Positions 1 to 13,356 of a stretch of 64,000 nucleotides of DNA are shown here, piece by piece; the first letter of the stretch is position 1; every line of letters starts with the position of its first letter. Position numbers and translations under genes: made by a program. The stretch is from Tetradesmus obliquus (taxonomy: Eukaryota; Chlorophyta; Chlorophyceae; Sphaeropleales; Scenedesmaceae): positions 2,099,501-2,163,500 of the forward strand of contig CP126194.1 of assembly GCA_030272155.1 (NCBI GenBank), read 5' to 3'. Below the pieces are notes generated by a model. It was not told where the DNA came from, ran no database searches, and saw only the letters and a list, made by a program, of their open reading frames with translations.

Positions 1-20
1 GTATGATGATGGAGGCATGT

Positions 21-103
21 GCGCTGTCTGTAAGACGAGCACACATTTTCAGTGCGCTGTCTGTAAGACGAGCACACATTTTCAGTGCGCTGTCTGTAAG
101 ACG
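21..103. repeat. 33-bp direct tandem repeat at the left edge
   Basis: A 33-base unit starting gcgctgtctgtaagacg begins at 21, 54 and 87; the third copy is cut short after 17 bases. The first two copies are identical. The array ends one base before the stop codon of the fibre-like gene on the minus strand, so it lies in that gene's 3' flank. It reads as an open 11-residue repeat on the plus strand, but nothing supports its being coding. It may be a terminator, a recombination product or part of a larger array left of the window. Confidence 0.85.
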
Positions 104-104
104 C

Positions 105-2780
105 TCACTTGATGAAGCGCACAAAAAGGTCGTTGGTGTAGGCCGTGCTCGCGCCGGGCAGGGTCTCCGAGTAGGGGGCGGTCAGGTTTTGGTCGTAGAG
201 CGAGTTGAAGCTAAAGTTGTCGCCCGACATCACCTGGTCTGGCCGCAGTGTCAGCTTGTAGAGGCCGTTGGCGTCCAGCACCTGCACCCCAGTGGCCGTC
301 ACGAACATGCCGTTGGCCGTAAAGCTGAAGGGGCCCATGGTGCCCGTGGTCGCGCTGGTGGTGGCCACCACGTTGCCATTGGGTTTGAGCGTCATGATAT
401 CCGACCCAGTCCCCGACGAGATGACCAGGTCGCCGCTGCCCCCACCTCGGACCCCGATGGTCCAGGCGCCCAGCTTGATGGTCCCGCCGCTCGCGCTGAT
501 GTTGCCGGCCACGTCCAGCTTGTTCGAGGGCGCGTTGGTCCCGATGCCCGTGTTGCCGCTGTTGCCGTCCACACACAGGCCAGTGGTGAAGTTGAAGCTT
601 GCACCAGATGCCAGACCTGACGGGCCATAGTTTATCGAGTACTTGCCGCCGATCTTGTAGACCTGGATGGGCGCGGGCGACACCGACGCCCTCCAAGCAC
701 TGCCGTCGTAGTAGCTGTCGTACATGTGCGCGATGTTGTCGGGTCCCCAGTTCAGCTGCTGGTAGATGGGGTACGCGCTCGAGCCCGTGTAGACGCCCAC
801 GAGCGGCCCTGCCATGGACCTTATGGCGCTGCTGGACAGGACGAGGCCGCTGGTGCCCGTGGGGGCCCCCTGCAGTCCGCTGGTTGGCCCGCTGCCGATG
901 CGCACGGTGCCGTTTACGACACAGTTGCCATTCACCGCCACGCCCCCGTCGGCTCGCACGACCAGCGAGGTGTTGCCCGAGGCCCCAGTGGTCCCTCGAA
1001 ACTGGAGGTCCCTGGTGGTCCCGTCGGTGGGCCCCACGGTCCACTGGGTGCCCGAGGTGTTGTCCAGGCGCAGGCATGCGCCCTTGTTGTAGCTCCAGGC
1101 CTTGAGCTCGCCGTAGACGTTTGCCCCCGAGTCGCTCAGGCGCATGACGTCTGAGACGGTGCCGCTGGTGAGGTCGGGCGTGGTGCCGAAGCGCAGGGGC
1201 TGGCCCTCGTTCCACAGAATGGACGTCGCGTTGGCATCGTGGCCGCTGTAGAGGCCCAGGTACCTGCAGCTGGGGCCCGTGAACTCGTTGGTGGCAAAGA
1301 CCTCGCCCCCGTACTGGCCGGCGACCTGCAGCAGCTTGCGCGGGTCCGAGGTGCGGATGCCCACGCGCTTGTTGGTGCAGTAGACGTTGGAGACCATGGG
1401 GTCCACCCAGGCCCAGTGGCGCGCGTCCATGAAGCCGTTGGCCGTCACGTTGGCCATGCCAGGCTTGTTCAGGATGAAGCTGGGCTCTGCCGGCAGCCCC
1501 TGGGTCCAGTCGGCCTGCCAGGTGTTGGAGAGCGTGATCAGGCCAGCGTTTGACACCGTGATGCGGCTGTTGGCGTCGGTGGTCAGCTTGACCTGCTTGG
1601 CGTTGAACGCGGCCCAGTCGGTGTTGCTGATCCAGCCCAAGGACACATTGGACAGGTTGGCGTTGTTCATGACGCGAATGTCATTGCGCCAGGTGGAGAG
1701 GCCTGGCACGTTGCCAGAGATCAGCAGGGGACAGGTGTTGGCCAGGGAGGGCACCATGTTGACGTCGCTCATCCTGATGGGGTTGAGGCCGGTGCTCTGG
1801 AAAACCACATTGGCCCCACTCAGCGTCACATTGGATGTCGCTGCAACATTGAGGCTGGATCCATTGCAGGTGAGGGGCCCGGTGAAGCTGGCAGCGCCCG
1901 CGACTTTGAAGGACGCTCCGTTAAAAGCCACGGTGTTCCCAAAGGTGGCTGGGCCGGTGACCTTGGCAAACGGCCGAAAGAACAGCTCCGTGCAGGACAG
2001 CCGGTCGGCCTGGGGTTCTATGAGAGGGAAGCGCGTAGCATTGTAATCCCCCTGCGGATTGCACCGCCAATCGCCTCCATACTCGGTCTCCATCCAGTTG
2101 GCCTCTGGCAGCGCATACACGGGCTTGCGCATGTACAGATTGCCAGGCAGCCAGGCCGAGAAGGCTTCGTAAAAGGCCACTCGCTGCGTGGCCGGGTTCC
2201 ACTCGCAAGGCGCGCCCGTGATCTTCTCCCACGGCACCTTGATTTCGCTGGAAGGATCGTCGTCGGGCAGGCTGGGCAGCGGAGGAGGCAGGAGCATGTC
2301 GGGAAAGAGCTGTGTCAGGATGGCTGCAGCAGACGCAGCGGTCGCAGCACTCCCCAGGGCCAGTGCAGCCTCGGCTATGCGCCTGGTCTCCTGCAGCTTG
2401 CCGTCCTCGGCCAGCCAGAAGCGCTGCACCACACTGGACCAGGGCACGGTGCTGGGCAGGGCCATTGGGGGAATGGAGGTGGTCGACAGGGACCCCTTGG
2501 CGCTCGTGGTGACCAGGGCCAGGCCGCCTGTGTTGGCGTCTCTGGACAGCGTGATGTTGGAGATGACCGAGTTGCCCAGCAGGAGCTGGGAGGGCAGCTG
2601 CAGGGGCACGTCAGCCTCGCGAGTGGTCTCTGCAACCTCGTCAAGGTACGTGACCCTCAGGGACCCGGTGTCGGCCACAGGGTACAGGTCAGTGACGTAT
2701 TCGAAGGGCGGGATGGCATTGGTGCCCTGATCTAGCAGAGAGGGCACGTACGCGCCTCGTGGGGCTCGGGCAGTGAACAT
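105..2780 (-). CDS. Long fibre-like virion attachment protein
   Basis: An 891-residue protein if started at the ATG at 2780 (MFTARAPRGA); this start leaves a 29-bp divergent gap to the lipase gene, and the open frame upstream overlaps that gene. After a unique N-terminal region of about 250 residues come many Gly/Ser/Thr/Asn-rich beta-type repeats, such as VAGNISASGGTIKLGAWTIG and VMRLSDSGANVYGEL. This style is familiar from phage and algal-virus tail-fibre proteins. There is no signal peptide, transmembrane segment or intron. The role, a trimeric fibre for host binding, is inferred from composition and from the neighbouring capsid genes. The C terminus (FVRFIK) has no recognisable self-cleaving chaperone domain. 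Confidence 0.75.
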   Translation of the reverse strand: MFTARAPRGAYVPSLLDQGTNAIPPFEYVTDLYPVADTGSLRVTYLDEVAETTREADVPLQLPSQLLLGNSVISNITLSRDANTGGLALVTTSAKGSLSTTSIPPMALPSTVPWSSVVQRFWLAEDGKLQETRRIAEAALALGSAATAASAAAILTQLFPDMLLPPPLPSLPDDDPSSEIKVPWEKITGAPCEWNPATQRVAFYEAFSAWLPGNLYMRKPVYALPEANWMETEYGGDWRCNPQGDYNATRFPLIEPQADRLSCTELFFRPFAKVTGPATFGNTVAFNGASFKVAGAASFTGPLTCNGSSLNVAATSNVTLSGANVVFQSTGLNPIRMSDVNMVPSLANTCPLLISGNVPGLSTWRNDIRVMNNANLSNVSLGWISNTDWAAFNAKQVKLTTDANSRITVSNAGLITLSNTWQADWTQGLPAEPSFILNKPGMANVTANGFMDARHWAWVDPMVSNVYCTNKRVGIRTSDPRKLLQVAGQYGGEVFATNEFTGPSCRYLGLYSGHDANATSILWNEGQPLRFGTTPDLTSGTVSDVMRLSDSGANVYGELKAWSYNKGACLRLDNTSGTQWTVGPTDGTTRDLQFRGTTGASGNTSLVVRADGGVAVNGNCVVNGTVRIGSGPTSGLQGAPTGTSGLVLSSSAIRSMAGPLVGVYTGSSAYPIYQQLNWGPDNIAHMYDSYYDGSAWRASVSPAPIQVYKIGGKYSINYGPSGLASGASFNFTTGLCVDGNSGNTGIGTNAPSNKLDVAGNISASGGTIKLGAWTIGVRGGGSGDLVISSGTGSDIMTLKPNGNVVATTSATTGTMGPFSFTANGMFVTATGVQVLDANGLYKLTLRPDQVMSGDNFSFNSLYDQNLTAPYSETLPGASTAYTNDLFVRFIK

Positions 2781-2809
2781 TCTAAAAAAAACCAGAGCAA
2801 TATTACAGG
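2781..2809. promoter_or_regulatory. Short divergent promoter region, fibre/lipase
   Basis: Only 29 bases separate the fibre start (minus) from the lipase start (plus). The gap is AT-rich, with an eight-A run and caatattac, in a GC-rich neighbourhood. Such a short shared spacer is typical of compact DNA-virus genomes. That it drives both genes is inferred from position. Confidence 0.45.
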
Positions 2810-3415
2810 ATGGCAGTGGACACGGCGCCAAACATGTTCGCACAAGGCGAACGTTTGGCTTTGCCAAACATGGCTGACTTTGCCAACGCATCCTACAGCG
2901 AGGCCCAGGACGCCGACACCATGCAAGGCTACAAGCTGGATGCAGAGCTGTCTGGCAAGGACTCCAAGGTCTGGGTTCGCAATGGTGATGGTCCTGGCCC
3001 AAAGACGGTCATAGGTCACAGGGGGACCTCCTTAAAGAAGCATGGTCTACGCGACATGACCAACAACCTGCTGAGCACCCTGGGCTTCGCACGCTTCACT
3101 AGTCGCCACAAAAACGCTGAAGCTCACCTGAGCAAAGTGATCCAGAAACATGGCAAGGAAGGCCTGGTGGCCACTGGACACAGTGCAGGAGGCCTGGTGG
3201 CTGGGCACCTGGGGACACGCTATGGCATAGAGACGCACCTCTACAATCCTCACGTGCCCCTGCTGGCCACAGCGAACTACTCAAAGCCGAACAATCACAT
3301 CTACATCTCTGGCAAGGACCCAGTGTCAGCCATGGCCCGCTTCTTCCCCAACAGCCGCATCACCTTTGTGAAAGCCAAGGGCAAGGACCATCACGCTCTG
3401 AAGAATTTTAGGTAG
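2810..3415 (+). CDS. Alpha/beta-hydrolase, class 3 lipase-like
   Basis: A 201-residue intronless protein. The nucleophile elbow GHSAG lies at residues 123-127 (catalytic Ser125), preceded by hydrophobic VATG and followed by a small-residue helix, as in class 3 lipases. A candidate acid is the Asp in SGKDPVS near residue 170, and a candidate His lies in the KDHHALKNF tail. The upstream IGHRGTS stretch fits the oxyanion-hole region of the family. Expected activity is hydrolysis of acyl-glycerols or phospholipids. Inside a virion gene cluster it may help breach the host membrane during entry or exit, which is inference. It converges on the HNH gene with a 32-bp gap holding a hairpin. Confidence 0.75.
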   Translation: MAVDTAPNMFAQGERLALPNMADFANASYSEAQDADTMQGYKLDAELSGKDSKVWVRNGDGPGPKTVIGHRGTSLKKHGLRDMTNNLLSTLGFARFTSRHKNAEAHLSKVIQKHGKEGLVATGHSAGGLVAGHLGTRYGIETHLYNPHVPLLATANYSKPNNHIYISGKDPVSAMARFFPNSRITFVKAKGKDHHALKNFR

Positions 3416-3435
3416 TCGCACGGGACTCCGGTAGG

Positions 3436-3447
3436 GTCGCACGCGAC
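3436..3447. terminator. Hairpin between convergent lipase and HNH genes
   Basis: The 12 bases GTCG-CACG-CGAC form a 4-bp stem with a 4-base loop, directly after the motif CCGGTAGG. The element fills the gap between two convergent stop codons. The motif GGTAGGGTCG followed by a GTCG/CGAC hairpin recurs after the capsid gene at 5611-5631, suggesting a shared 3'-end signal. Function is inferred from position and recurrence. Confidence 0.4.
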
Positions 3448-3954
3448 TCATCCAAAGTTCAAGTGAGCATCCGCTCCCCTCAGCTCCTTCGCATGGAAAT
3501 CAAAGACGCTCGCAGCCTCCTCGGGGGTGTCGTAGAGACCCAGGTGGACCCGCACGCCCTGGTGATGGATCTGGGCCTGGTACCTGCGTGACTGCTTGTG
3601 GTAGCATACACCACGGAAGCAGCAATCGCCCCAGGTCCTCCGGTTTATACTGTTCAGCGACCTGCTAGCCCAGCGCAGGTTGTCGACGTGGTTATTCAAG
3701 GGATTGCGGTCCACGTGGTCAACCTCCGCAAGACCTTCAGGATTCGGCAGAAATGCCATCGCCACCAGGCGCGCCAGGCTCATGGTCTTGTCGTTTATCC
3801 GGACCTTGCGATAGCCCTTGGTGTTCACATAGCCATTGAGGATGCGCCCTTGCCTGGTCTTGAAGGACATTACGCGTCCAAGGTTGCTCACGCTATACTC
3901 GGGGGCGCACTCGACACTGATCCAAGTCTCCGGAAGGGTCGGTACCGACTCCAT
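3448..3954 (-). CDS. NUMOD4-HNH-AP2 homing-type endonuclease
   Basis: A 168-residue protein. Residues about 8-50 (ETWISVECAPEYSVSNLGRV) match the NUMOD4 DNA-binding module. Residues about 77-95 (EVDHVDRNPLNNHVDNLRW) are the HNH nuclease core with the DH, N and N-LRW positions. Residues about 112-160 (FRGVCYHKQSRRYQAQIHH, then LGLYDTPEEAA) form an AP2-like DNA-binding domain. This order is standard for free-standing homing endonucleases of phages and large algal viruses. It stands alone between the lipase and small-protein genes and is not inside an intron or intein. It is probably a selfish gene or a nuclease acting on competing genomes; the choice cannot be made from sequence. Confidence 0.88.
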   Translation of the reverse strand: MESVPTLPETWISVECAPEYSVSNLGRVMSFKTRQGRILNGYVNTKGYRKVRINDKTMSLARLVAMAFLPNPEGLAEVDHVDRNPLNNHVDNLRWASRSLNSINRRTWGDCCFRGVCYHKQSRRYQAQIHHQGVRVHLGLYDTPEEAASVFDFHAKELRGADAHLNFG

Positions 3955-3995
3955 GGTCTCACGAGCATTAATATCTCGCGAGGGCTTATATCACA

Positions 3996-4193
3996 ATGCC
4001 CAGCTTTGGTTCATTCGTCCGCAAGGTCCAGTCCGGCGTGCACAAGGCCCTGCCAGTCCTCAAGCGTGCCGGCAGCATCGCTGCCTCCGTGGCCAATGTT
4101 GCAGGCCCAGCACTCTCTGGGGTCACAGGAGGTGCCTCTGAGATCATAGCAAGGGGCGTGCAGACAGCCAATCGCATGCTGCAGGCAGCCTGA
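3996..4193 (+). CDS. Small Ala/Ser/Val-rich protein upstream of capsid gene
   Basis: A 65-residue protein starting MPSFGSFVRKVQSG. It is basic and amphipathic with two helix-prone stretches (VHKALPVLKRAGSIAASVA and ASEIIARGVQTANRMLQAA) joined by a Gly/Pro turn, and has no cysteine. It lies just before the major capsid gene on the same strand; upstream, cttatatcac precedes the ATG. Size, composition and position resemble small virion-core or membrane-active peptides of adenovirus-like and polinton-like viruses, but I see no specific match. Function unknown. Confidence 0.6.
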   Translation: MPSFGSFVRKVQSGVHKALPVLKRAGSIAASVANVAGPALSGVTGGASEIIARGVQTANRMLQAA

Positions 4194-4258
4194 GTTGGGC
4201 TTTGCCACAGTGCCAACAAGGCAGCTTAGCGCCCATACTAGGGCAGCCTGAGCCCAAC
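4194..4258 (+). terminator. Inverted repeat between small protein and capsid genes
   Basis: GTTGGGCT at 4194-4201 is perfectly complementary to AGCCCAAC at 4251-4258. The flanks are also related, since GCAGCCTGAG precedes both arms. The repeat begins at the stop codon of the 65-residue protein and ends about 50 bases before the capsid start. It may be a 3'-end hairpin or a duplicated segment that later inverted. Confidence 0.4.
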
Positions 4259-4310
4259 AAGCCCGCGGCTCGCCACCATTTATTTCTGCTGAAGGGTTAC
4301 CATCAAGCTC

Positions 4311-5585
4311 ATGTCCATCGCTGAAGGAATCCCCCGCAACCTTGCCATCATCGTGCAGCGCCTGAGCCAGTACCAGTCCAACACGCTGAAGATCACGCCC
4401 ATGAACACCGACACGTTCGGCCCCGGCGCCGTGTGCTCCTTCAGGCTGCCTGCGTACAAGGTGCTGGACACGCACTCCATCTGGCTGCAGGGCAAGTTCG
4501 ACGCTGGCGTCAGCACGGCCACCAAGAAGGCGTCCCTGCCAGGCTTTGGTGCAGGCATCATTCAGCGTGTTACAGTGAGCTGCAACGGCGTGACCATTGG
4601 CTCAGGCGCGACGAATTATAATGAGGTGATCGCCATGATCGACAACGTGACCCTCGCTGCAGCAAAGCGCAAGGAGCTGGCCGTGTACGAAAACTACACC
4701 GACCTGTCCACTGCCACAGACCACCAGGCGACCCTGGCGATTCCAGGCTCGGTCGCACCTGCCGCAGGAGGCGCCCAGGCCACATGGTCCGTCAACAGCC
4801 TGCACGGCACCCTGCTGGGAGGCACGCACCAGCGCTTCATCGACACCGGCGCCCTCGGCACGGTGCAGCTGGACATCCAGTTCGCGCTGCCCAAGGTGCT
4901 GGCGAGCGACGATCCCTCCCCCACCTACCAGCTGTCGAAGACATGCATGTATGTGAAGACAATCGACTTTGGCAACGGGCTGTACCAGGCCATGATCGCC
5001 AAGAAGGTCAACGCGGGCGGCCTGGTGATTCCCTTCAAAAACTACGTGACCGCCGTGTCCACCGCCGGTGGCACCAGCCAGGACCACACCGTCATGGTGA
5101 GCTCCCAGTGCATCGACCAGCTGTGGGGCATGCTGCGCGCCACGGGCTACACCGGCAACCAGGGCACCTACGAAGCAAACAACGAGCTCAGCAACTACTT
5201 CAACTCAAGCTCGATGGGCTCCAACACCCAGCTGAACTTTGTGCTAAACAACGCCACACTGCCCGCCTTCCCATGCGACTGCGACACCGCCTACATGCTG
5301 CTCAAGAGCGCCCTGAACGGCACCGGCAAGAACCTGCTCTACTTCAGCTCCATCAAGGACCAGGCCGACTGGACCTCCCGCAAGTTTGTGTTCACAGTGA
5401 GCCTGGAGCACGGCGCAGAGCTGGGCGAGGTCCCAGTGCTGTCAGGCATGGACACCATGGCCAACCCCATGCCCATCATTTTCCGCGTCACCAACGCCAG
5501 CGGCGGCCACACAGCAGTGATCGTGGTGGAGTGCACAAGCCAGTGCGTGGTGTCGCCCGGCCAGGTGGTGGGCTATCTGCAATAG
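4311..5585 (+). CDS. MCP: Major capsid protein, double jelly-roll (PLV type)
   Basis: A 424-residue protein without introns. The N terminus (MSIAEGIPRNLAIIVQRLSQ) followed by a beta-rich region, the central QLDIQFALPKVLAS segment and the C-terminal FRVTNASGGHTAVIVVECTS suit the polinton-like/virophage double-jelly-roll MCP, whose usual length is 400-600 residues. I rest the call on this overall pattern, the length, and the company of a packaging ATPase and a probable penton protein. It would assemble as trimers into pseudo-hexameric capsomers. The ATG at 4311 is preceded by an AT-rich stretch (catttatttctg). There is no frameshift or premature stop. Confidence 0.8.
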   Translation: MSIAEGIPRNLAIIVQRLSQYQSNTLKITPMNTDTFGPGAVCSFRLPAYKVLDTHSIWLQGKFDAGVSTATKKASLPGFGAGIIQRVTVSCNGVTIGSGATNYNEVIAMIDNVTLAAAKRKELAVYENYTDLSTATDHQATLAIPGSVAPAAGGAQATWSVNSLHGTLLGGTHQRFIDTGALGTVQLDIQFALPKVLASDDPSPTYQLSKTCMYVKTIDFGNGLYQAMIAKKVNAGGLVIPFKNYVTAVSTAGGTSQDHTVMVSSQCIDQLWGMLRATGYTGNQGTYEANNELSNYFNSSSMGSNTQLNFVLNNATLPAFPCDCDTAYMLLKSALNGTGKNLLYFSSIKDQADWTSRKFVFTVSLEHGAELGEVPVLSGMDTMANPMPIIFRVTNASGGHTAVIVVECTSQCVVSPGQVVGYLQ

Positions 5586-5610
5586 CAGATTTCTCCTTTG
5601 CAGTAGCACC

Positions 5611-5631
5611 GGTAGGGTCGTCACAGACGAC
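5611..5631 (+). terminator. Perfect 6-bp hairpin downstream of capsid gene
   Basis: GTCGTC (5617-5622), loop ACA and GACGAC (5626-5631) form a perfect hairpin 31 bases after the capsid stop codon. It is preceded by CCGGTAGG, the same motif as at the lipase/HNH junction. A transcription-end or RNA-processing hairpin is the simplest reading. Confidence 0.45.
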
Positions 5632-5725
5632 ATGCGCGACAAGCGCACATGCAGCAAATCCTTACTCTGCAGTGATGTGTGCTGGCGCACATACGACAAA
5701 TGTCTAAACCAATAGCATCATTGCA

Positions 5726-6025
5726 ATGGACGGCTCTGCACCACAGGGAGCACGCAAGACCTGGGCGTACGGCGCGAGCTTGCAGTTTGACAAGGGCGAC
5801 GCGCGTCAGGGCCTTCAGTACCAGGGCATAAACGGCTACACCGGCTTTGGTGGCAGCTACCTGCCCTACAACGCGCCAAGGTACCCCATTGCGGGCATAG
5901 ACCACCTGCCCAAGGGGCGCGACTTCAACACCTGGGGCGCCATGGGCTACGCCAACACGCCCAGCAAGGTCGACAAGGATGCCTTCAATGGCAGCAACGA
6001 CCCCAAGTTTTCACACAAGTGGTGA
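5726..6025 (+). CDS. Small Gly/Tyr-rich protein downstream of capsid gene
   Basis: A 99-residue protein starting MDGSAPQGARKTWAYG. It is rich in Gly, Tyr, Asn and Asp (for example GINGYTGFGGSYLPYNAPRY), with no predicted membrane segment and no cysteine. It converges on the discoidin-like gene with only 15 bases between stop codons. I do not recognise the family. Its place in the virion cluster suggests a minor structural protein. Confidence 0.6.
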   Translation: MDGSAPQGARKTWAYGASLQFDKGDARQGLQYQGINGYTGFGGSYLPYNAPRYPIAGIDHLPKGRDFNTWGAMGYANTPSKVDKDAFNGSNDPKFSHKW

Positions 6026-6040
6026 TTCATCCATTCAGAG

Positions 6041-6934
6041 TCATCCAGACTCCAAGAACAGCGTGGCGGGCGACCCGAGCGTCACGGGCGTCCTGTCTGA
6101 AGCCCATACCAGCCTGAGAGGCAGTGGCTGCCCAGGCCCCAGCGGCAGCACCCGCACCGCCCCGTTTTGGTGGGCGCACGTCGTCCATGTGATCGCGCCC
6201 TTGAACACGACCCCTAGCACCGTGCTCGGGCACTTTGATCTGGTATCGAATGACTCCCGTTGAACCACGGAGTCGCTCAACACCAAGATGTGGTCCTGGC
6301 GCGCATCACTGGCATACGCAAGCTGCAGCGGGCTGACTCCCACCAGCTTCAGTGTCGACCCTGTCGACCCTACCGACACCGGCCACTGGGGGCTGATGTC
6401 GGTCTCCAGGATCAGTGTCAGCGTGGGCAGGAAGGCTGCGTAGGCGGGCAGGTTGGGGTCGCTGTGCAGCACTCCGCGGACCACCAGGCGGTAGGTTTGA
6501 TACGCTGAGCTGGGCCGGTTCGGGAGCGCGCTGCGCACCCAGGTGTACTGGGGACCGGTCGTGATCAAGGCCTGAGCGTTCCACGGAAACGACTGGCCGC
6601 CGTCATTGGAGCCGTAGACGACCCACCGCCCAGGCTGCCCATCCTTGGGCAGGGAGATGGCACTAAAGTCGTAGGCCACCAGCCTACCAGCCACAGGCAT
6701 GTCCACCTGGAGCCACTCGCCCTGAACACCTGAGGTGACAGGCGCCGAGCCCCCTGCGTACTTGAGCAAGTTGACAGCATTGGGCGTATACGTGGCCGCA
6801 GAGGTCCAGGCGGTGGAGCCGTCGCCGTCAAATGCGTTGGATGGATCGCTGCCAGAGGAGCTGGTCACACGGTAGAGGGTTCCCTGGACCGGGTGCTCAG
6901 TGGAGCCAGGAAGGGTTACGCTGATCAGGGTCAT
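6041..6934 (-). CDS. Discoidin (F5/8 type C)-like virion protein
   Basis: A 297-residue protein from the ATG at 6934 (MTLISVTLPGSTEH); the longer frame would enter the next gene upstream. The N-terminal half reads as a galactose-binding-like fold: SNAFDGDGSTAWTSAATYTP, then GEWLQVDMP, then GRWVVYGSNDGGQSF and YQTYRLVV. These are landmark segments of F5/8 type C/discoidin domains. The C-terminal half is beta-rich and unassigned. The fold commonly binds carbohydrate or lipid head groups, so a role in host-surface attachment alongside the fibre is plausible. That role is inferred. Confidence 0.72.
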   Translation of the reverse strand: MTLISVTLPGSTEHPVQGTLYRVTSSSGSDPSNAFDGDGSTAWTSAATYTPNAVNLLKYAGGSAPVTSGVQGEWLQVDMPVAGRLVAYDFSAISLPKDGQPGRWVVYGSNDGGQSFPWNAQALITTGPQYTWVRSALPNRPSSAYQTYRLVVRGVLHSDPNLPAYAAFLPTLTLILETDISPQWPVSVGSTGSTLKLVGVSPLQLAYASDARQDHILVLSDSVVQRESFDTRSKCPSTVLGVVFKGAITWTTCAHQNGAVRVLPLGPGQPLPLRLVWASDRTPVTLGSPATLFLESG

Positions 6935-6960
6935 GGTAGGGCACACTACGTGATGACCTT

Positions 6961-7389
6961 TCAATCGATAAACTCTAGCAGAATGGACCACTCACCGCCC
7001 GCCACGGCGGCGACCTTGCCCGTGACATGCTGCAGGCTCACCGTGAGGTAGGTCTCAAAGTTGCCGGCCTGCACGTCGATGGGGCCATTGTCGGCGTCGG
7101 TCGCATAGTACACGTACTGGCCGCTCACGTTGAGCTTGGGCTGCAGCAGACCCACCACGCGCCCCATGGACTTGGTGCCTGTGTCGTAGGAGTCCTGCCT
7201 CAGCTGCGGGATGACCACCGCGATGCTGTCCAGGGTCCCCGTGACCACACAGCTCGACCACACCAGCTTGACTGCCGAGTACTCCCCGAGGGGCAGCGTG
7301 GAGGGCAGCAGCCAGGTGGCGGTGGAGGCGTTCGGCCGGTCCGAGGCGGCGCTACTGCTCAGCAGCACTCTGTGACCCGTCCTCTCCAT
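6961..7389 (-). CDS. Probable small structural protein, beta-rich
   Basis: A 142-residue protein when started at the ATG at 7389 (MERTGHRVLLSSSAAS). A longer frame reaches 7452, but its added residues overlap the preceding acidic gene more deeply. The body alternates beta strands, such as SAVKLVWSSCVVTGTLDSI and GNFETYLTVSLQHV, and ends ILLEFID. The phrase VLLSSSAA..NASTATWLLPSTLPLGEYSAVKL resembles short single-jelly-roll-like proteins beside PLV and virophage capsid genes, but I cannot name it. It overlaps the upstream gene by 38 bases and stops 26 bases before the discoidin-like gene, suggesting co-transcription. Confidence 0.6.
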   Translation of the reverse strand: MERTGHRVLLSSSAASDRPNASTATWLLPSTLPLGEYSAVKLVWSSCVVTGTLDSIAVVIPQLRQDSYDTGTKSMGRVVGLLQPKLNVSGQYVYYATDADNGPIDVQAGNFETYLTVSLQHVTGKVAAVAGGEWSILLEFID

Positions 7390-7576
7390 CGTCGATCGAC
7401 ACAGAGCTTGCATACTGCGCACATAGTTTGTCCAGCGCATCCTCCACGTCATACTCGTCGCCGAGCTCCTGCTCTAGGCCTTGGTGTGTCTCTATGCACA
7501 GCTCCAGCACCTCGCGCTGCACGTTGGGGAACTCGGCGCACAGCATGTCCAGCATGAATTCGGGTGGGCTGCTCAT
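7352..7576 (-). CDS. Small acidic protein with CUE/UBA-like helix pattern
   Basis: A 74-residue acidic protein, MSSPPEFMLDMLCAEFPNVQ. The segment LDMLCAEFPNVQREVLELCI followed by DVEDALDKLC resembles the ubiquitin-binding CUE domain (hydrophobic-FP, then a third helix with DVE-A--L). The C terminus is acidic and Ser-rich. It overlaps the next minus-strand gene by 38 bases. The CUE reading is tentative because the domain is short and degenerate. If right, it would be a virus-encoded ubiquitin binder. Confidence 0.4.
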   Translation of the reverse strand: MSSPPEFMLDMLCAEFPNVQREVLELCIETHQGLEQELGDEYDVEDALDKLCAQYASSVSIDDGEDGSQSAAEQ

Positions 7577-7604
7577 CTGTGGGTCGGCGGCTATAATTTC
7601 GTGT

Positions 7605-7623
7605 CACGGTTGACGCGACCGTG
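7605..7623 (-). terminator. Hairpin downstream of packaging ATPase gene
   Basis: CACGGT (7605-7610), a 7-base loop and ACCGTG (7618-7623) form a perfect 6-bp stem in the 146-bp gap between the ATPase stop and the next minus-strand start. The AT-rich box tataatttc just beside it (7591-7599) could serve the following gene. Function is inferred from position. Confidence 0.4.
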
Positions 7624-7722
7624 CGCGTCGCTGACCTTCGTGTCAGCTCGACCGAGAGGGGGCTGGTGCCCCTGGGCGCGCGGATGCAGCCTGCACCGCA
7701 GAAGCCAAACCAGCAGAGCACT

Positions 7723-8715
7723 CTAAACCACAGGGAGCGCACTCTTAGGGTGCGTGTCATTTGTGCTTTTTGCAAAGCTAATAATTTCGTCCCAGCCCGC
7801 TCGCAGGCGGTGCTTCTCGGGCGCGCCAAAGTCGATGCACAGGAAGCCAAAGGGCCGGTTGGTGGCGTACTCGTAGGCCTTGAGCAGCTGCGCCTGTGGC
7901 ACGTCCGCGCCGTACATGTCCAGGAGCGCTTGCACCATCTTCTCGTCCTTGAGCTTGAAGATGCCCACCAGCGAGGCGTTCTCGCGGATGGAGCGAGGCA
8001 GGCCCGCAGCCTGCGCCTTGAGCGACTGCGCCACCAGCCACAGGGAGCAGCCCAGGCCCCCTGCCACGTGCCGGTGCCGGAGCGCCAGGTTGTGCAGGGG
8101 CGCCTTGTAGGAGCCCGCCATCAGCTCCGTGCCCTGCACGTCATCCAGCACGATGTGCAGCACAGGGGGCTTGCCCTTTCTGCTGGCGGGCCGATTGGCG
8201 TCGTAGCGGTAGGGCGGAGGGGGCTGGTCGATGAAGTCGCCAGAGAAGGCCCTGAACAGCAGGTCGGGGTCGATGCGCTCGATGTCGACGTGGCGCTTCT
8301 TGAGCAGGCGCTGCAGCAGCGCGTAGTCGTCCAGGGCGCGCTTGTGCTCCTGGTACTCGGCGGCCTCCTGGTCGATCGCCTCCAGCACCTTGATCAGGCT
8401 GGCATTGGTGGCGTCATCCACCAGGTCTTCGTCAGCGACCCCCGCCGACGTGTACAGGTCGCGGTTGCTCTGGCAGGTGGGGCTCAGCACCCAGATGCGG
8501 TCCGCCAGGCCCTCAGCACGCAGCTGCCTGAGCAGGGAGAAGAGCGCAAAGCCCTTGCCACCGCCCTTGCGGCCCACGATGAGCCCCAGTTGGTGCAGCG
8601 GGATGCCATCCTCGGGCGTGTCCACGGCGAACGCGTGCTTCAGCTTTGCAGCCGGGGCCTTGACCTCGTAGCGCGGGACCTTGGTGACGTGTAACGCGCC
8701 GTGCATTTGCATCAC
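7723..8715 (-). CDS. FtsK/HerA-type genome-packaging ATPase
   Basis: A 330-residue P-loop ATPase. Walker A is GRKGGGKG at residues 48-55; Walker B is LHIVLDD at about 187-193, and LWLVAQS near 226 fits a sensor-like strand. This set and length match the A32/FtsK-HerA packaging ATPases of polinton-like viruses, virophages and NCLDVs, which pump DNA into preformed capsids. It is a hallmark gene for the element. Start: MMQMHGALHV offers ATGs at 8715, 8712 and 8706; the first is used. It is followed by a small gene after a hairpin-bearing gap and preceded by the basic repeat protein. Both motifs look intact, so it is probably active. Confidence 0.88.
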   Translation of the reverse strand: MMQMHGALHVTKVPRYEVKAPAAKLKHAFAVDTPEDGIPLHQLGLIVGRKGGGKGFALFSLLRQLRAEGLADRIWVLSPTCQSNRDLYTSAGVADEDLVDDATNASLIKVLEAIDQEAAEYQEHKRALDDYALLQRLLKKRHVDIERIDPDLLFRAFSGDFIDQPPPPYRYDANRPASRKGKPPVLHIVLDDVQGTELMAGSYKAPLHNLALRHRHVAGGLGCSLWLVAQSLKAQAAGLPRSIRENASLVGIFKLKDEKMVQALLDMYGADVPQAQLLKAYEYATNRPFGFLCIDFGAPEKHRLRAGWDEIISFAKSTNDTHPKSALPVV

Positions 8716-8737
8716 GGAGTTAAGTCATGTCTGGATT

Positions 8738-9580
8738 TTAGTCGCGCATCGACAATGGGCGGAGCCTCAGGTCTTCGTTGAACTCGCGGCGGTAAGCTCT
8801 CCATGGAGCTTCCTGAGCCAACTGGCGCTGAGTGCGACGCGGTTTGGCGATGACAGGAACAGGGCGCAGTCGGTTGGGATCCGGACGAGCCCTTGCAACA
8901 GCAGGAGGAGGAGGGTTGAGCTGGTTCTCGGCGGGTCGGGGGTTGAGCTGGTTCTCGGCAGGCCTCGCGGGGTTGCGCTGGTTCTCGGCGGGCCTCGCGG
9001 CAGGCGACCTCACGACAGGCGACCTCACCGTACGAATCCTGACACCAGGCTCCTGCTTTACGCGCACGGGGTTGGCTTGATTCTGAGGGGGGCGGGCATC
9101 GCTCCGGTCTGGCGCATCTGGCTGCAGCGAAGCCACCGTGAACGAGTCGCTCATGGACAGCGGGGCTCGGGACCTTTGCGTCGCCTGGCTTGCCGTTGAC
9201 GCCCGAGTGCTCTTGGGCTCCTTCTTGACGACCACAGGCTCCGAAGCACCATTCATCGTGGTGCCCTTGGGCTTGGCGTCCACCTCGGTCAGGGCAGGGA
9301 GCCCGTAGACAGGGCGCTCAACAGGTTGGGGAACGCTGACGTTGAAGCCCATGGGCATGGGCGCGTACCCACCACCACCACCAGCGCTGCTCAAGGAGAT
9401 GTTGTTCTTCACAATTGTGCTCTTGGTGATGGCGCGCAGCATAGCCCTGTGCGCCTGCACACTCTGGACGATGGAGGAGGCCTTGGTGGCCTTGGGCTTG
9501 GTGGCCTTGGCCTTGGCCTTGGCCTTGGGCTTGGGCTTGGGCTTCGTCCCAACATTACTGGGGGGCTTGCTGGGGGGCAT
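8738..9580 (-). CDS. Basic low-complexity virion or DNA-binding protein
   Basis: A 280-residue, strongly basic protein. The N terminus is a Lys/Ala/Pro tract (KPKPKPKAKAKAKATKPKA), encoded by hexamer-type DNA repeats near 9490-9545, resembling histone-H1 tails. The middle is disordered, and residues about 195-225 carry three or more copies of RPAENQ(L/R)NP. No enzymatic motif is visible. A Lys/Ala/Pro tail suggests nucleic-acid condensation, perhaps core packaging, but this is inference. It lies between the ATPase and the probable penton gene on the same strand with 22- and 6-bp gaps. The open frame despite repeats suggests selection. Confidence 0.65.
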   Translation of the reverse strand: MPPSKPPSNVGTKPKPKPKAKAKAKATKPKATKASSIVQSVQAHRAMLRAITKSTIVKNNISLSSAGGGGGYAPMPMGFNVSVPQPVERPVYGLPALTEVDAKPKGTTMNGASEPVVVKKEPKSTRASTASQATQRSRAPLSMSDSFTVASLQPDAPDRSDARPPQNQANPVRVKQEPGVRIRTVRSPVVRSPAARPAENQRNPARPAENQLNPRPAENQLNPPPPAVARARPDPNRLRPVPVIAKPRRTQRQLAQEAPWRAYRREFNEDLRLRPLSMRD

Positions 9581-9586
9581 TGTGCT

Positions 9587-10372
9587 TTAAGACCGTGTTG
9601 ATTTTTTGAGATCCAGCAGCTCGGCCGTGTTCTTGTTCAACAGGCTCATCTGGTCCTCAAACACGTCAGCCACCTCTGCAATGGTGACGGTGCAGTGCCA
9701 GGGCTCGGCACAGGTGGGGATCAGCCCCAGCTCAGCGTCACTGATCCACACCCGAATGCTGTCGATCAGGCTGGAGTGGTAGAACACGGCGCGGTCACCG
9801 CTCAGGTCTTCAAACGGATAGGGGATCTCATCATTCACAGGCAGGGTGCACAGGACCTGTGTGTTGGTCTTCAGCACCCCATCCCTCCACACGTGCGTGT
9901 TGCTGGACAGGCTGGAGTGTACGATGACGTAGTCCAACAGACCCAGCTGGGGCGCCTGCACAGAGCTGGAGCCAGCAGTCAGGGTCCTGACACTACGAGG
10001 CAGGCCCAGCAGGTCGGCACAGGAGTTGGGCGCAGAGACGTCCAGCTGGCCAGCGGTCTGAAAGATGAAACGGTTGTCCACATGGCTCCACTTGGTCACA
10101 CAGCCAACACTGCTCAGCTGGTAACAGATGTCTTGCGCAGTGGACTTGCCCGGCCACAGGTAGTACTGAACATTGTTCCACCCGAACGTGTTGTTGGCAG
10201 CCGAGATGTTGGGGATGAAGCTGGGCATCACGATCTTGCTGATCCACACCTTCCAGCTGGTCTTGTGGCTGGAGTCCACCTTGTGCAAGAGCATGGGCGG
10301 CAGGTGCAGGTCCACAGAGGCAGTGCTGCTGCTAATCAACAGGTGGTGCGTCTGCAGGGGGCGCTGCATCAC
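9587..10372 (-). CDS. Probable minor capsid (penton) protein
   Basis: A 261-residue protein, MMQRPLQTHHLLISSSTASV. Beta-rich segments include KVWISKIVMPSFIPNISAAN, YYLWPGKSTAQDICYQLSSV and LDYVIVHSSLSSNTHVWRDG. The segment ending SLIDSIRVWISDAELGLI recalls the conserved 'i-si-v-l-d-e-g' strand of polinton/PLV penton proteins (single jelly roll). Its length matches the family (230-300 residues). With the capsid protein and ATPase it completes the usual morphogenesis trio. The closeness of this call rests on pattern memory; a profile or structure comparison would decide. The C terminus (LLDLKKSTRS) is basic. Confidence 0.62.
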   Translation of the reverse strand: MMQRPLQTHHLLISSSTASVDLHLPPMLLHKVDSSHKTSWKVWISKIVMPSFIPNISAANNTFGWNNVQYYLWPGKSTAQDICYQLSSVGCVTKWSHVDNRFIFQTAGQLDVSAPNSCADLLGLPRSVRTLTAGSSSVQAPQLGLLDYVIVHSSLSSNTHVWRDGVLKTNTQVLCTLPVNDEIPYPFEDLSGDRAVFYHSSLIDSIRVWISDAELGLIPTCAEPWHCTVTIAEVADVFEDQMSLLNKNTAELLDLKKSTRS

Positions 10373-10373
10373 G

Positions 10374-10598
10374 TTACCTAAACTCCAGCAGGAAAGGGCC
10401 AGGAAGGATGCGCAGCATGCCAGGCTCTACAGTGGATCGGTGGATCCTGTAGCGCGCACACTTGGCGCAACCGCACTCGGTCCAGTCAGCGTGAGGCGGG
10501 CGACGACGGGGCTTCTCGGGGCTGGGAGACTCAGGTATGGTCGACACGGTCGACTCAGGCATTTGACACATCTCAGAGAAGCCAAACAAACTACACAT
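10374..10598 (-). CDS. Small Cys-rich protein
   Basis: About 74 residues from the ATG at 10598 (MCSLFGFSEMCQMPE). This start overlaps the preceding gene's stop by 8 bases, typical of tight viral packing; the longer frame to 10703 lies wholly inside that gene. A Pro/Ser/Arg-rich middle is followed by WTECGCAKCARYRIH, a CxCxxC cluster that could bind metal with the nearby His. Its stop is one base from the probable penton start. Family unknown. Confidence 0.5.
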   Translation of the reverse strand: MCSLFGFSEMCQMPESTVSTIPESPSPEKPRRRPPHADWTECGCAKCARYRIHRSTVEPGMLRILPGPFLLEFR

Positions 10599-11256
10599 GT
10601 GGCACGCACACGTCCACCCGCTGGCCATCATCCAACAGCTTGGGGTCGCGGTCAATCTGGCGCAGGATGGTGGCAATGCCATCCCTGTAGTTGGCAGCAC
10701 CATAGCTCACGCCATCCTGGAAGGCAGTGCGACCCCCACGCACAAAGTTCAGGAAGCGCTCAATGCCCCACCTGTCAATGCCAGCCTTGATGACGCGCAC
10801 AGCCACAGGCAGGTTGCTGACCTGGTTCAAAGACCAGGGGTCCACAGAGGGATCCACCTGGCGCACCAGGTCAATGGACAGATTGAACAGAGAAACATTG
10901 GCAGCATCACCATCACGATCCTTGGTGGCGTCCCTGTCATCAGAAGACATGGTGGTGGTCTCCTGCATGGCCATGGCCACCATCAGGGCAGTCAGGTGGG
11001 GAGGCACGCCAGCATTCTTGCAGACCATGACCAGCCGCTGCTTGTTGTAGCGAAGGATGAAGCCGTACTCGTTGATGGCGTAGGGCAGGGAGGCAGGGCT
11101 GTTGGGCAGGCACTCACTCCAGTAGCGGGTCATCTTGACTGGGCCAGAGAGTTTATCTGGCTGCATGGAACTTGAGGCAAGCCAGAGGAGCCATACCAGC
11201 AACCCAGCAACAACAGCCAACATGCCAACCAAGTGCCACTTCTGCGGAGGCGTCAT
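10591..11256 (-). CDS. Membrane-anchored lysozyme-like domain protein
   Basis: A 221-residue protein. An N-terminal membrane segment (MLAVVAGLLVWLLWLASS) is followed by a globular domain. Recognisable landmarks are ALMVAMAMQETTTMSSDDRD, NVSLFNLSIDLV, VRGGRTAFQDG and YRDGIATILRQID. I recall a similar domain (AMAMQETT..S.DRD, FN.., RGGRTAF.DG) in uncharacterised fungal and viral proteins. A conserved Glu in a helix before a DRD loop resembles lysozyme/transglycosylase folds, but no activity can be assigned. Starts at 11256 or 11223 are both possible; the latter ATG shares bases with the plus-strand gene's ATG. It may be a virion membrane or entry enzyme. Confidence 0.6.
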   Translation of the reverse strand: MTPPQKWHLVGMLAVVAGLLVWLLWLASSSMQPDKLSGPVKMTRYWSECLPNSPASLPYAINEYGFILRYNKQRLVMVCKNAGVPPHLTALMVAMAMQETTTMSSDDRDATKDRDGDAANVSLFNLSIDLVRQVDPSVDPWSLNQVSNLPVAVRVIKAGIDRWGIERFLNFVRGGRTAFQDGVSYGAANYRDGIATILRQIDRDPKLLDDGQRVDVCVPHV

Positions 11257-11461
11257 CTACGTACCCAGGACCATGAAGAACAAGAGGAAAGCAATCGCAT
11301 GCATGGCAAACAAGCAAGAAGCCTGCAGCTTCCCAGCACACCCAGAGTGCGCCATCAGGCAGATGGACAAACTGAAGAAGAGAGACAGGCAGGGGATACT
11401 GGGGTTCATAGAGCTCAGCGAAGCGGGCCTGCTGAGGCCAGAAGACGCCCAGCGGGAATAG
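11222..11461 (+). CDS. Small zinc-finger-like protein
   Basis: A 79-residue protein from the ATG at 11222 (MPTKCHFCGGVIYVP). Cys and His positions (CHFCGG, then ACMANKQEACSFPAHPEC) give a possible zinc site of the CxxC...C..HxxC kind, followed by a basic, helical C-terminal half. It is divergent from and overlaps the lysozyme-like gene; the four bases CATG at 11221-11224 could hold both start codons. It is the last gene clearly belonging to the virus-like block. Function unknown; small Zn proteins are common in PLVs. Confidence 0.55.
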   Translation: MPTKCHFCGGVIYVPRTMKNKRKAIACMANKQEACSFPAHPECAIRQMDKLKKRDRQGILGFIELSEAGLLRPEDAQRE

Positions 11462-12303
11462 GCGAAGAGGTCGCGGGTTCGAACCTGGCCTGGTGCTTTC
11501 ACTTTTTGGGTGATGGCTCGCTCCTGAAATTTTTTCACTGGAACGGGGAGCTGACGGCTCCAATACGTTTGGCACAATGTAAAACCACTGTGGGAACTGC
11601 TTGGGCCCCAAGGGGGGTGCTAAAAGACTGCGCGCAGCGCTTAGGCGTGGCTACCATCTATCTGAAAGCAGATGGACTGCAGACGATGACCCAGTTCCTG
11701 CCAGCAAGGATATTGCCGCCGAGCATGCCTACAGTAGAGAAGGAGGCATTGGTTAAAGCACACAAACCAGACATAGTGCTATACCGCACCAACAAGGATA
11801 CAAAAAACAAGCACAGCTACATATTTGTGGAGGTCAAGTACTGCAGAGACACGCAACTGCAAGACCAAGTGCTGCACGCCAGGGAGCAGCACCACAGTCT
11901 GTTGCAAGCAATAAGGAAGTACACCTCTCATAACGACACTGCAATACAACTGGTAGTCATCCCCCTGGGGGTTGCCGGCACAGTATACACTAGTGCCAAG
12001 AAGCTCCTGAAGGAATCACTAGGCGTCTCGTCCCCAGCACTGGACACACTGCTGCGTAACCTGCATCTCCATGCCGTTCGATCACTCACCAACGTGATAA
12101 GATACAGGCGCATCAAGATGGGCACTCGCCTTGGCAAGCAATGGCGCCAACACAGCCATGCAGCAGGTGGTAACTGTGTAACACAACGAAACAGCGGCAG
12201 CGGCAGCAGCACCAGCAATGCAGCTAAAAACGGCCGGAAGAGGCAAGGGCCCAGACTACCCAACTTCAAGCGCAAGAAACGCAAGAAAAAGCAGGGAGGA
12301 TAG
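11462..12303 (+). pseudogene. PD-(D/E)XK nuclease-like ORF, likely retroelement remnant
   Basis: An open frame of about 280 codons with no in-frame ATG before MTQFLPARILPPSMP unless one starts upstream inside the zinc-finger gene (first ATG at 11233). KPDIVLYR followed by YIFVEVKYC gives the D...ExK pattern of PD-(D/E)XK endonucleases. Then come DQVLHAREQHHSLLQAI, LVVIPLGVAGTVYTS and a Lys/Arg-rich tail (NFKRKKRKKKQGG). I associate this combination with C-terminal nuclease-like regions of repetitive ORFs in green-algal genomes, probably non-LTR retroelements. No reverse transcriptase is in the window. It could also be a cargo gene of the virus element. Confidence 0.45.
11465..11500 (+). other. 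tRNA 3'-half-like sequence at the element's right side
   Basis: The run aggtcgcgggttcgaa matches the variable loop, T-stem and T-loop of a typical eukaryotic tRNA, especially tRNA-Ile (AGGTCGCGGGTTCGA). The 3' half of the T-stem is imperfect and no matching 5' half or acceptor stem is seen within 80 bases upstream. It may be a tRNA-gene fragment at an integration site or part of a tRNA-derived SINE. Confidence 0.4.
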
Positions 12304-13356
12304 TTACCTCCAATGCATATGGCTGGGGCTGGGAGACTTTAGGGAATGGGGCGGCAGGGGTGCTGGATGTGGTGGGCAGCAGCAGCAGCAGCAGCGGTGA
12401 TGGGTTGCTGCCTGCTAGCATGGTCTCATTGTTGCAACGGCTCTACATTGTGATCACTTGGTATCATTTGATCGTGTGTTCAGCGGAAGCAGCGAGGGGA
12501 GCGTGCTGGAGCCACGACAGTACAGCAGGGGGCAGAGGAGATGCCTGCTGCTCTGAAGACCTAGAGGACTCGCAGCTTTCTTTAAGGAGGAAGTCATATG
12601 TTTTTGATGGACTGCGGATGGCAGAGCTTGTCGTAGGGGAAGGGCGGGAGTCCCGTGGCACTGTTACGCGGTGTTATGGCCCTGTCCTTTGCCCTCCTTT
12701 ACTTCCGCTCTCTGAAAAGAGAGCGTAGACACTTTCACTTTCACGGGGCACGTGCTGCTACGTGCACCTGCTGCAGGGGATGTTCATTTGTCAGTCACTG
12801 TCAACAGTCACCAGCAGCGCCGTCACCAGCAGGCCTGGCCCTATACAAGGGCCGTCACGTGGTTGTGTGCGCGCGTGCGCCAAGTTGTAGCTGTATCATG
12901 GTGACAGGCTGCCTCAACCAAGTGCAAGAGGTGGCTGTTTTTGAGTTGTGCAACAACATGTGAGTCACGAGCATCCTAGGACATGCAGGCTGACGGCGGC
13001 GCTGCCGCAATGGCTGCAATACTGCAATGCAGTGTCAACCGTGTCATGGGCTAACCACAGCACACCACGTACTGGCGCGTATTTGGGCACGTATCAATAC
13101 TCTCCAGGCAGCGTATTGCGTATCGCGTATCCAATACCATACGTATTGCGTATTAAGCAACCCTGTTACATACGGGCATCGCCTGGGCAACAAGCTGAAC
13201 ATAGGTCCCAGATTGGATGCAGCAGATAAATCAAGAATGTAAACGCAAGTTGAGTGAGTTATGTTGTGCTGTGTCGTGCGTGTTTGAGCTGCAACGTTGC
13301 TGCTGCCGCAGCAACTCCAGCATAGCAACTGCTGCTGCTCCCTCCAAGCCTGCTGG

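Follow-up and report, generated by a model that had tools for sequence, protein, structure and literature searches.

The window analysed here is a 64,000-nucleotide stretch of the Tetradesmus obliquus genome (104.66 Mb in 17 contigs) corresponding to C4:2099501-2163500, and its first 11,663 bases form only the right half of an inserted element whose left half lies beyond the window. The element spans C4:2090129-2111163 (window -9371 to 11663; 21,035 bp), with limits found by comparing 10-kb pieces around the capsid-gene loci. The original prediction had placed a polinton-like provirus at 1-11461; its location of the open reading frames (ORFs) stands, but the element extends rightwards to 11663 and starts 9,371 bp to the left of the window. 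The features, in window coordinates unless otherwise noted, are as follows.

C4:2090129-2090343 (window -9371 to -9157): left terminal inverted repeat (TIR), 215 bp
L007:853-4800 (left half, outside the window): Tlr1-type helicase/polymerase-like protein, 1315 aa
L007:4819-7923 (left half, outside the window): integrase-like protein, 1034 aa, with a D-D-D triad
Left arm, after the integrase: three smaller genes, 151, 142 and 377 aa
105..2891, minus strand: fibre-like protein, 928 aa, labelled by eye; 96-98% identical in the C14 and C15 copies
2810..3415, plus strand: alpha/beta-hydrolase (lipase-like), 201 aa; UPF0227 at 2.7e-5, above cut-off, and Lipase_3 at 0.018, below
3448..3954, minus strand: NUMOD4-HNH-AP2 homing-endonuclease-like gene, free-standing, at the centre of a divergence peak
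4311..5585, plus strand: putative major capsid protein, 424 aa, from context and unnamed homologues
5726..6025, plus strand: conserved protein, 99 aa, 96-100% in four other copies
6041..6934, minus strand: 297-aa protein with a weak discoidin/F5-F8 type C match
6961..7452, minus strand: conserved protein, 163 aa
7723..8712, minus strand: putative packaging ATPase, 329 aa, with P-loop GRKGGGKG and Walker B-like HIVLDD
8738..9580, minus strand: basic low-complexity protein, 280 aa, fast-evolving
9587..10369, minus strand: conserved protein, putative penton/minor capsid, 260 aa
10591..11256, minus strand: GH134-like (beta-mannanase/lysozyme-like) enzyme, 221 aa, with an N-terminal hydrophobic stretch by eye
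11165..11461, plus strand: Cys-rich protein, 98 aa, its last residues and stop inside the TIR
11449..11663 (C4 end 2110949-2111163): right TIR, 215 bp
11664..11668: target-site duplication (TSD) GAAAG, 5 bp, with a second copy directly before the left TIR

The two TIRs are identical at 215 of 215 bases. When the flanks are joined, the resulting 115 nt match eight uninterrupted paralogous copies of a host repeat at 91-97%, which are thus empty sites. Given the TIRs, the TSD and these eight uninterrupted copies, the insertion is genuine and no misjoin; a misjoined contaminant, raised beforehand as a possible refutation, is excluded by the TSD and the empty sites. The host repeat to the right of the element (window 11664-12364) is matched over its full length by at least eight other sequences at 89-92%, and its ORF resembles by eye a PD-(D/E)XK-type retroelement end with no Pfam match. 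GC content is 61.7 per cent in the element part of the window and 56.5 per cent in the remainder. A candidate tRNA-like sequence at the TIR edge (GGTTCGAACC) was rejected, as ARAGORN and Rfam place none there, and a tRNA-Pro called within the helicase gene was taken as spurious. Between the 377-aa and 928-aa genes, a 33-bp unit is repeated in tandem three times at window 19-117 (the third at 70% similarity); the C10 copy of the element has fewer repeats.

The twelve predicted ORFs of the right arm are each a single open frame at the expected place, and they cover 88% of window 1-11663. Counterparts in the same order are present at C14, C15 and C5, and in part at C13 and C10, a recurrence that makes them unlike chance ORFs. 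A further predicted frame at 10374-10703 (109 aa) is probably no gene, being overlapped by another ORF and broken in C14 and C5, and the true start of the fibre-like gene may be nearer 2780. The lipase (alpha/beta-hydrolase) label at 2810-3415 is borne out by the UPF0227 match (2.7e-5, above cut-off); the discoidin label at 6041-6934 survives as a weak one (F5_F8_type_C, E=0.014, below cut-off). The putative ATPase keeps its Walker A and B motifs across four aligned rows, down to 39% identity, and its profile matches are weak (AAA_16, 0.0096; PHROG terminase, 0.0025).

The double-jelly-roll and penton assignments are putative and derive from context and unnamed homologues. A genome search places the capsid gene at five places (six rows), and the 424-aa protein has 16 related database proteins in public sets, none named capsid and with organisms not shown. 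No Pfam model matched it at E up to 1, and among its 16 relatives three families only gave matches, each in one member and at chance level (best E 0.055). A PDB search with the capsid profile gave nothing meaningful, and a phmmer match to an antibody was taken as chance. IMG/VR yielded no relatives by the capsid, the capsid alignment, the helicase, two distant capsid homologues or the ATPase alignment; the phage collection held no capsid relative and returned only generic helicases to the helicase query. The 260-aa putative penton has seven database hits with no annotated relative among them. No Pfam model at E up to 1 matched either it or the fibre-like protein, the latter scanned without its first part.

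The protein predicted to be lysozyme-like is assigned by Pfam to glycoside hydrolase family 134 (5.4e-7, 30.6 bits against a cut-off of 27), a beta-mannanase family with a lysozyme-like fold. Its match to the solved beta-1,4-mannanase 5xtj is weak (E=0.0076); one Glu aligns with the 5xtj Glu that we take to be catalytic, and the second catalytic residue, presumably an Asp, is unaligned. Mannose is described as high in the cell walls of a Scenedesmus strain (PMC9372998), which together with the GH134 match makes it plausible that this protein opens the host wall. During entry, the fibre and lectin-like proteins would bind the alga, the GH134-like enzyme would open the mannose-containing wall and the lipase would breach a membrane. 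A role of lipases in the entry of polinton-like viruses (PLVs) has been proposed (PMC4642659).

The 1315-aa protein of the left arm is an SF1 helicase on its C-terminal side (AAA_30 at 5e-12, above cut-off; PIF1 at 1.2e-5, just below) and also matches RecD-type helicases in PDB and NCBIfam. Pfam shows this helicase part only. Its putative palm and vOTU parts stand at motif level; the vOTU-like C259/H361 and the palm-like D541, K652 and KSD753 were assigned by eye, are identical in the three copies aligned, and include a motif C (KSD753) without its first Asp. The integrase-like protein has D186 and D228 in all eight aligned rows and D84 in all six that hold that part, two gene models being without it. 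RVE integrases have Glu where this protein has Asp228. An 'LGILD' stretch resembling that of the integrase is present in a second, distant family of this genome. Pfam matches of the C15 copy are both below cut-off (rve, 0.0028; rve_3, 0.17), and the integrase profile had no meaningful match in PDB. Two T. obliquus database proteins with OEZ85 tags, a locus-tag series that we take to be that of strain UTEX 3031, align with about 30% of the left-arm integrase, at 95% identity.

Three further full-length copies are present in the genome, along with several truncated ones:

C15: full length, 21,397 bp, TIR 189 bp (99.5%)
C14: full length, 21,686 bp, TIR 190 bp (99.5%)
C5: full length, 20,944 bp, TIR 174 bp (98.3%)

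The TSDs are exact in three of the four full copies (GAAAG, GATGA and ACATA), for which chance stands at ∼4e-9 at equal base frequencies, and the C5 pair (TGCAG/GGCAG) agrees at four of five bases. The copies differ in state. C14 has counterparts of all 18 frames examined, with a stop only in the doubtful 109-aa frame and with the integrase and the first part of the fibre gene aligning in pieces. In C15 the helicase is interrupted by two stops. In C5 the capsid, fibre and doubtful 109-aa frames contain stops, and no 142-aa gene was found. The left arm and the genes from fibre to HNH are missing from C13, whose capsid gene is partial and contains a stop, as do its 297-aa and 260-aa genes.

Codon comparisons covered 13 frames, a set without the helicase, the integrase and the 151-, 142- and 280-aa genes, and three overlapping frames were kept out of the pools. 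Pooled dN/dS over ten genes is 0.246 (C4-C14), 0.301 (C4-C15) and 0.273 (C14-C15); it is 0.26-0.28 against C5 (eight genes) and 0.15-0.19 against C13 (four genes), with a range of 0.15-0.30 over ten pairs of copies. Single-gene values run from 0 to 0.99 where changes are few. The original prediction had read the undamaged frames as signs of selection or of a recent insertion, and both readings gain support: the former from pooled values of 0.25-0.30 for C4 against C14, C15 and C5, the latter from the 215/215 identity of the TIRs together with the open frames. The purifying selection on the particle genes could predate the insertion.

The C4 element is not of one descent throughout. Here lineage A denotes its TIRs, helicase and integrase catalytic half, and lineage B the following part of the integrase together with the window genes. 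Within the window part, C4 is 92-97% identical to C14 and C15 in DNA, and its proteins are 90-100% identical, except for HNH (77-80%) and the low-complexity protein (53% in C15). Further left, the C4 pieces alignable with C14 fall to 63-80% DNA identity, and the C4 helicase is 43-44% identical to those of the B copies. The TIRs of the B copies align with one another, whereas the C4 TIR against each of them is matched or exceeded in score by 150-159 of 200 shuffles; a 7-base match near the tips of C4 and B TIRs is weak, being reached by 58 of 2000 shuffles. At C13 a TIR pair was not found, and a B-like end is visible.

Both borders can be placed. In the integrase gene, 90-base bins give C4-C15 identities of 50-81% as far as about codon 414, followed by three bins at 93-99%. 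After these come one bin at 73%, ∼700 bases at 87-99% and values of 60-98% near the end, and the border is thus sharp on one side only. At the right end, C4-C14 identity stops at 11445 and the C4 TIR begins at 11449, and the inner edge of the C14 TIR lies 12 bp past the end of the sequence shared with C4. One whole right TIR has in effect been replaced by another, within ∼12 bp of the old inner edge. The C4 element is therefore a hybrid, with TIRs, helicase and integrase catalytic half of lineage A and the remaining integrase and window genes of lineage B.

The same junction occurs elsewhere. At C10:166-179 kb, B-type sequence is joined to an A-type TIR, a helicase (98%) and an integrase N-terminal half (97%), the last two with one stop each; this left arm is 98.7% identical to C4 over 5.6 kb, and the copy is cut off inside the lipase gene. 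Two OEZ85 gene models likewise run from A-type into B-type sequence. The hybrid left arm at C10 and in these models indicates that the hybrid existed as a mobile lineage. No A-type element with particle genes of its own was found in the genome, and the donor was thus not seen. A copy at C5:5.07-5.09 Mb was considered as the A-type parent and rejected, since the stretch read (5076001-5084400) is truncated inside the integrase and continues into an unrelated long ORF. That 1518-aa open frame (C5:5078380-5082933), beyond the truncated A-type left arm, is retroelement endonuclease/reverse transcriptase-like by eye at its start.

A second site of divergence lies within the shared right arm. In 250-bp bins, C4 and C15 differ by a median of 1.55% (50 bins) but by 23% and 13% in those of the HNH gene. 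Two bins were covered by two pieces, of which the one with the capsid gene was taken and the other showed up to 14%. The peak recurs in C4-C14 (12-20%) and C14-C15 (14-23%), and dS for HNH among these three copies is 0.48-0.53, whereas the ATPase, 260-aa and 377-aa genes have values of 0.01-0.03 and the GH134 gene 0.03-0.05. Minor peaks occur near 2875, 5625 and 8625. A working hypothesis for the HNH peak is homing with co-conversion of the flanks; no HNH-less allele was seen among the compared copies.

Public gene models bear on mobility. The P0018 model joins host phosphoesterase exons to viral helicase and integrase; in the present genome these exons lie at C8:3.594 Mb, and C8 is without a helicase or integrase match. 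This suggests an insertion present in the other assembly and absent here at C8, bearing in mind that gene models can join distant exons. P0017 and P0018 both apparently splice viral frames, with P0018 fusing them to the phosphoesterase. The host part of one OEZ85 protein matches the genome at 57-95% over four exon stretches (best locus), and the OEZ85 source and the analysed genome may be different strains or sister species.

Truncated left arms also lie less than 16 kb from four contig starts (C1:5608-7189, C10:8111-15309, C11:383-1333 and C12:1841-2682), in all four with the start of the helicase pointing inward. Each of these contigs begins with 300-400 bases of telomere repeats (CCCTAAA), and on C11 a few bases separate the array from the broken helicase match. 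Four of 14 helicase/integrase loci thus lie near contig starts, which make up 0.5% of the genome (p ∼7e-7, with the cut-off chosen post hoc). Either telomere healing on broken elements or a preference for chromosome ends would account for them. A second, distant PLV-like family is represented by two very similar copies (C10:274636-292970 and C1:6646066-6661309); its matched parts are stop-free, and it is 39% identical to the C4 element in the ATPase and 26-27% in the helicase.

The C4 element is very probably an integrated Tlr1-type polinton-like virus, a hybrid of A ends and replication genes with B particle genes. The provirus originally predicted is upheld by the TIRs, the TSD, the empty sites, the sister copies and the integrase-like and Tlr1-like proteins. 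The linear viral DNA would be copied by protein-primed replication from the TIRs, and the integrase would cut the host 5 bp apart and join the TIR ends. A and B would have been joined by a crossover within the integrase gene; a copy of the new left TIR would afterwards have replaced the old one on the right, because replication and integration would need matching ends. A fuller proposal is possible rather than probable: the TIRs, replication protein and integrase catalytic half would form a single transferable 'ends-and-engine' cassette, two linear viruses having recombined in the integrase gene, the mismatched right end having been rewritten as a copy of the left (as panhandle repair would do) and the foreign-ended hybrid having spread to further sites, while the free-standing HNH between lipase and capsid would drive a second, local exchange hot spot.

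It might instead be supposed that no swap took place, that A and B diverged in the left arm and that gene conversion within the host genome homogenised the right arm among copies. The uneven divergence inside the shared part would fit such a history. However, the C4 TIRs resemble B TIRs no more than shuffles do, and the right TIR changes ∼12 bp from the old edge, such that homogenisation must have stopped just at the TIR; this account is quite improbable. Movement within the nucleus only, as a capsid-bearing transposon that no longer makes particles, is an alternative that we regard as unlikely. The RVE-like integrase, TIRs and TSDs, and the several dispersed copies and truncated relics, are what a transposon would show, but the window genes are the best conserved part and are under purifying selection between copies (omega 0.15-0.30), and the 16 capsid-related database proteins (organisms not shown) also speak against it.

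Domestication of the genes for antiviral defence or another host use would account for the undamaged frames, and PLVs have been discussed as antiviral (PMC12220804). It is very hard to reconcile with a complete element that lies in a multicopy host repeat and is bounded by TIRs of 100% identity, with broken sister copies at C15, C5 and C13, and with one site seemingly occupied in another assembly and free here, and it is accordingly given very little credence.

The four full-length elements measure 20.9-21.7 kb with TIRs of 174-215 bp, as described for PLVs (linear elements of ∼14-40 kb whose TIRs run to hundreds of bp), and the element ORFs gave no Ulp1-type cysteine protease against Pfam at E up to 1, as in PLVs; peptidase-named matches are weak and confined to the lipase-like protein. 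Tlr6f (PF19058), said to occur in nearly all PLVs, was matched by none of the scanned element ORFs at E up to 1. Strict polintons differ, as no separate pPolB or protease match was obtained in Pfam and the TSD is 5 bp, not 6. Tlr1-like helicases are described as combining a vOTU, a palm that has lost the first Asp of motif C and an SF1 helicase (PMC11071308); here the SF1 helicase is supported by profile, and the palm (first Asp of motif C missing) and vOTU are found at motif level only.

Several known systems are close. Monoraphidium neglectum belongs to the same order as the Tetradesmus host. Its PLV is likewise integrated in a green alga and without a protease, and its RVE integrase and protein-primed polymerase signature would have their counterparts here in the RVE-like integrase and the palm-like motifs; by description, that PLV carries a pDNAP, whereas the C4 motifs lie in the Tlr1-like helicase (PMC4642659). 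Tlr1 of Tetrahymena and Tlr1-like helicases share a probable RVE integrase with C4 and the large vOTU/palm/SF1 protein, the latter here at motif level; comparing gene sets by description, Tlr1 differs in its ciliate host, and the C-terminal nuclease has no profile assignment in C4 (PMC11071308). Cryptophyte PLVs are described with TIRs of hundreds of bp, TSDs of 5-6 bp and HNH genes free-standing or fused, and a NUMOD4-HNH-AP2 protein is named for a Symbiodinium element; in contrast to C4, they are reported without lipase genes, and neither GH134 nor lysozyme appears in the main text (PMC12220804). Endogenous PLVs with TIRs and integrases are described as common in protists and known in chlorophytes, Tetradesmus and Scenedesmus being absent from the main text of that survey (PMC10120064). 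An algal-pond virus survey mentions Scenedesmus, virophage and polinton together (PMC11633385), and the literature search returned no paper pairing Tetradesmus with polintons or endogenous viral elements.

The C4 element represents a new polinton-like provirus family in which a swap of ends plus replication genes is unusually clear, module exchange itself being known. PLVs and virophages are described as mixing replication and particle modules, and in the EMALE02 virophages of Cafeteria recombination is thought to have swapped one genome half, the particle half being changed for unrelated PLV-like capsid genes and the remaining half keeping its homology (PMC8547959). In C4, by contrast, the ends and the replication half changed, the particle genes are near-identical and the border lies inside the integrase gene. 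The exchanged half of EMALE02 is unrelated and the mechanism is hidden; here the sister copies are a few per cent apart, and the border can be placed within tens of bases and both ends seen to have changed together. How TIR sequence, replication protein and integrase are linked can thus be tested in the T. obliquus copies. The element also provides a TSD-resolved provirus at chromosome scale from a cultured green alga, and public protein sets already contain relatives of it, annotated as hypothetical or as gene models fused with host sequence.
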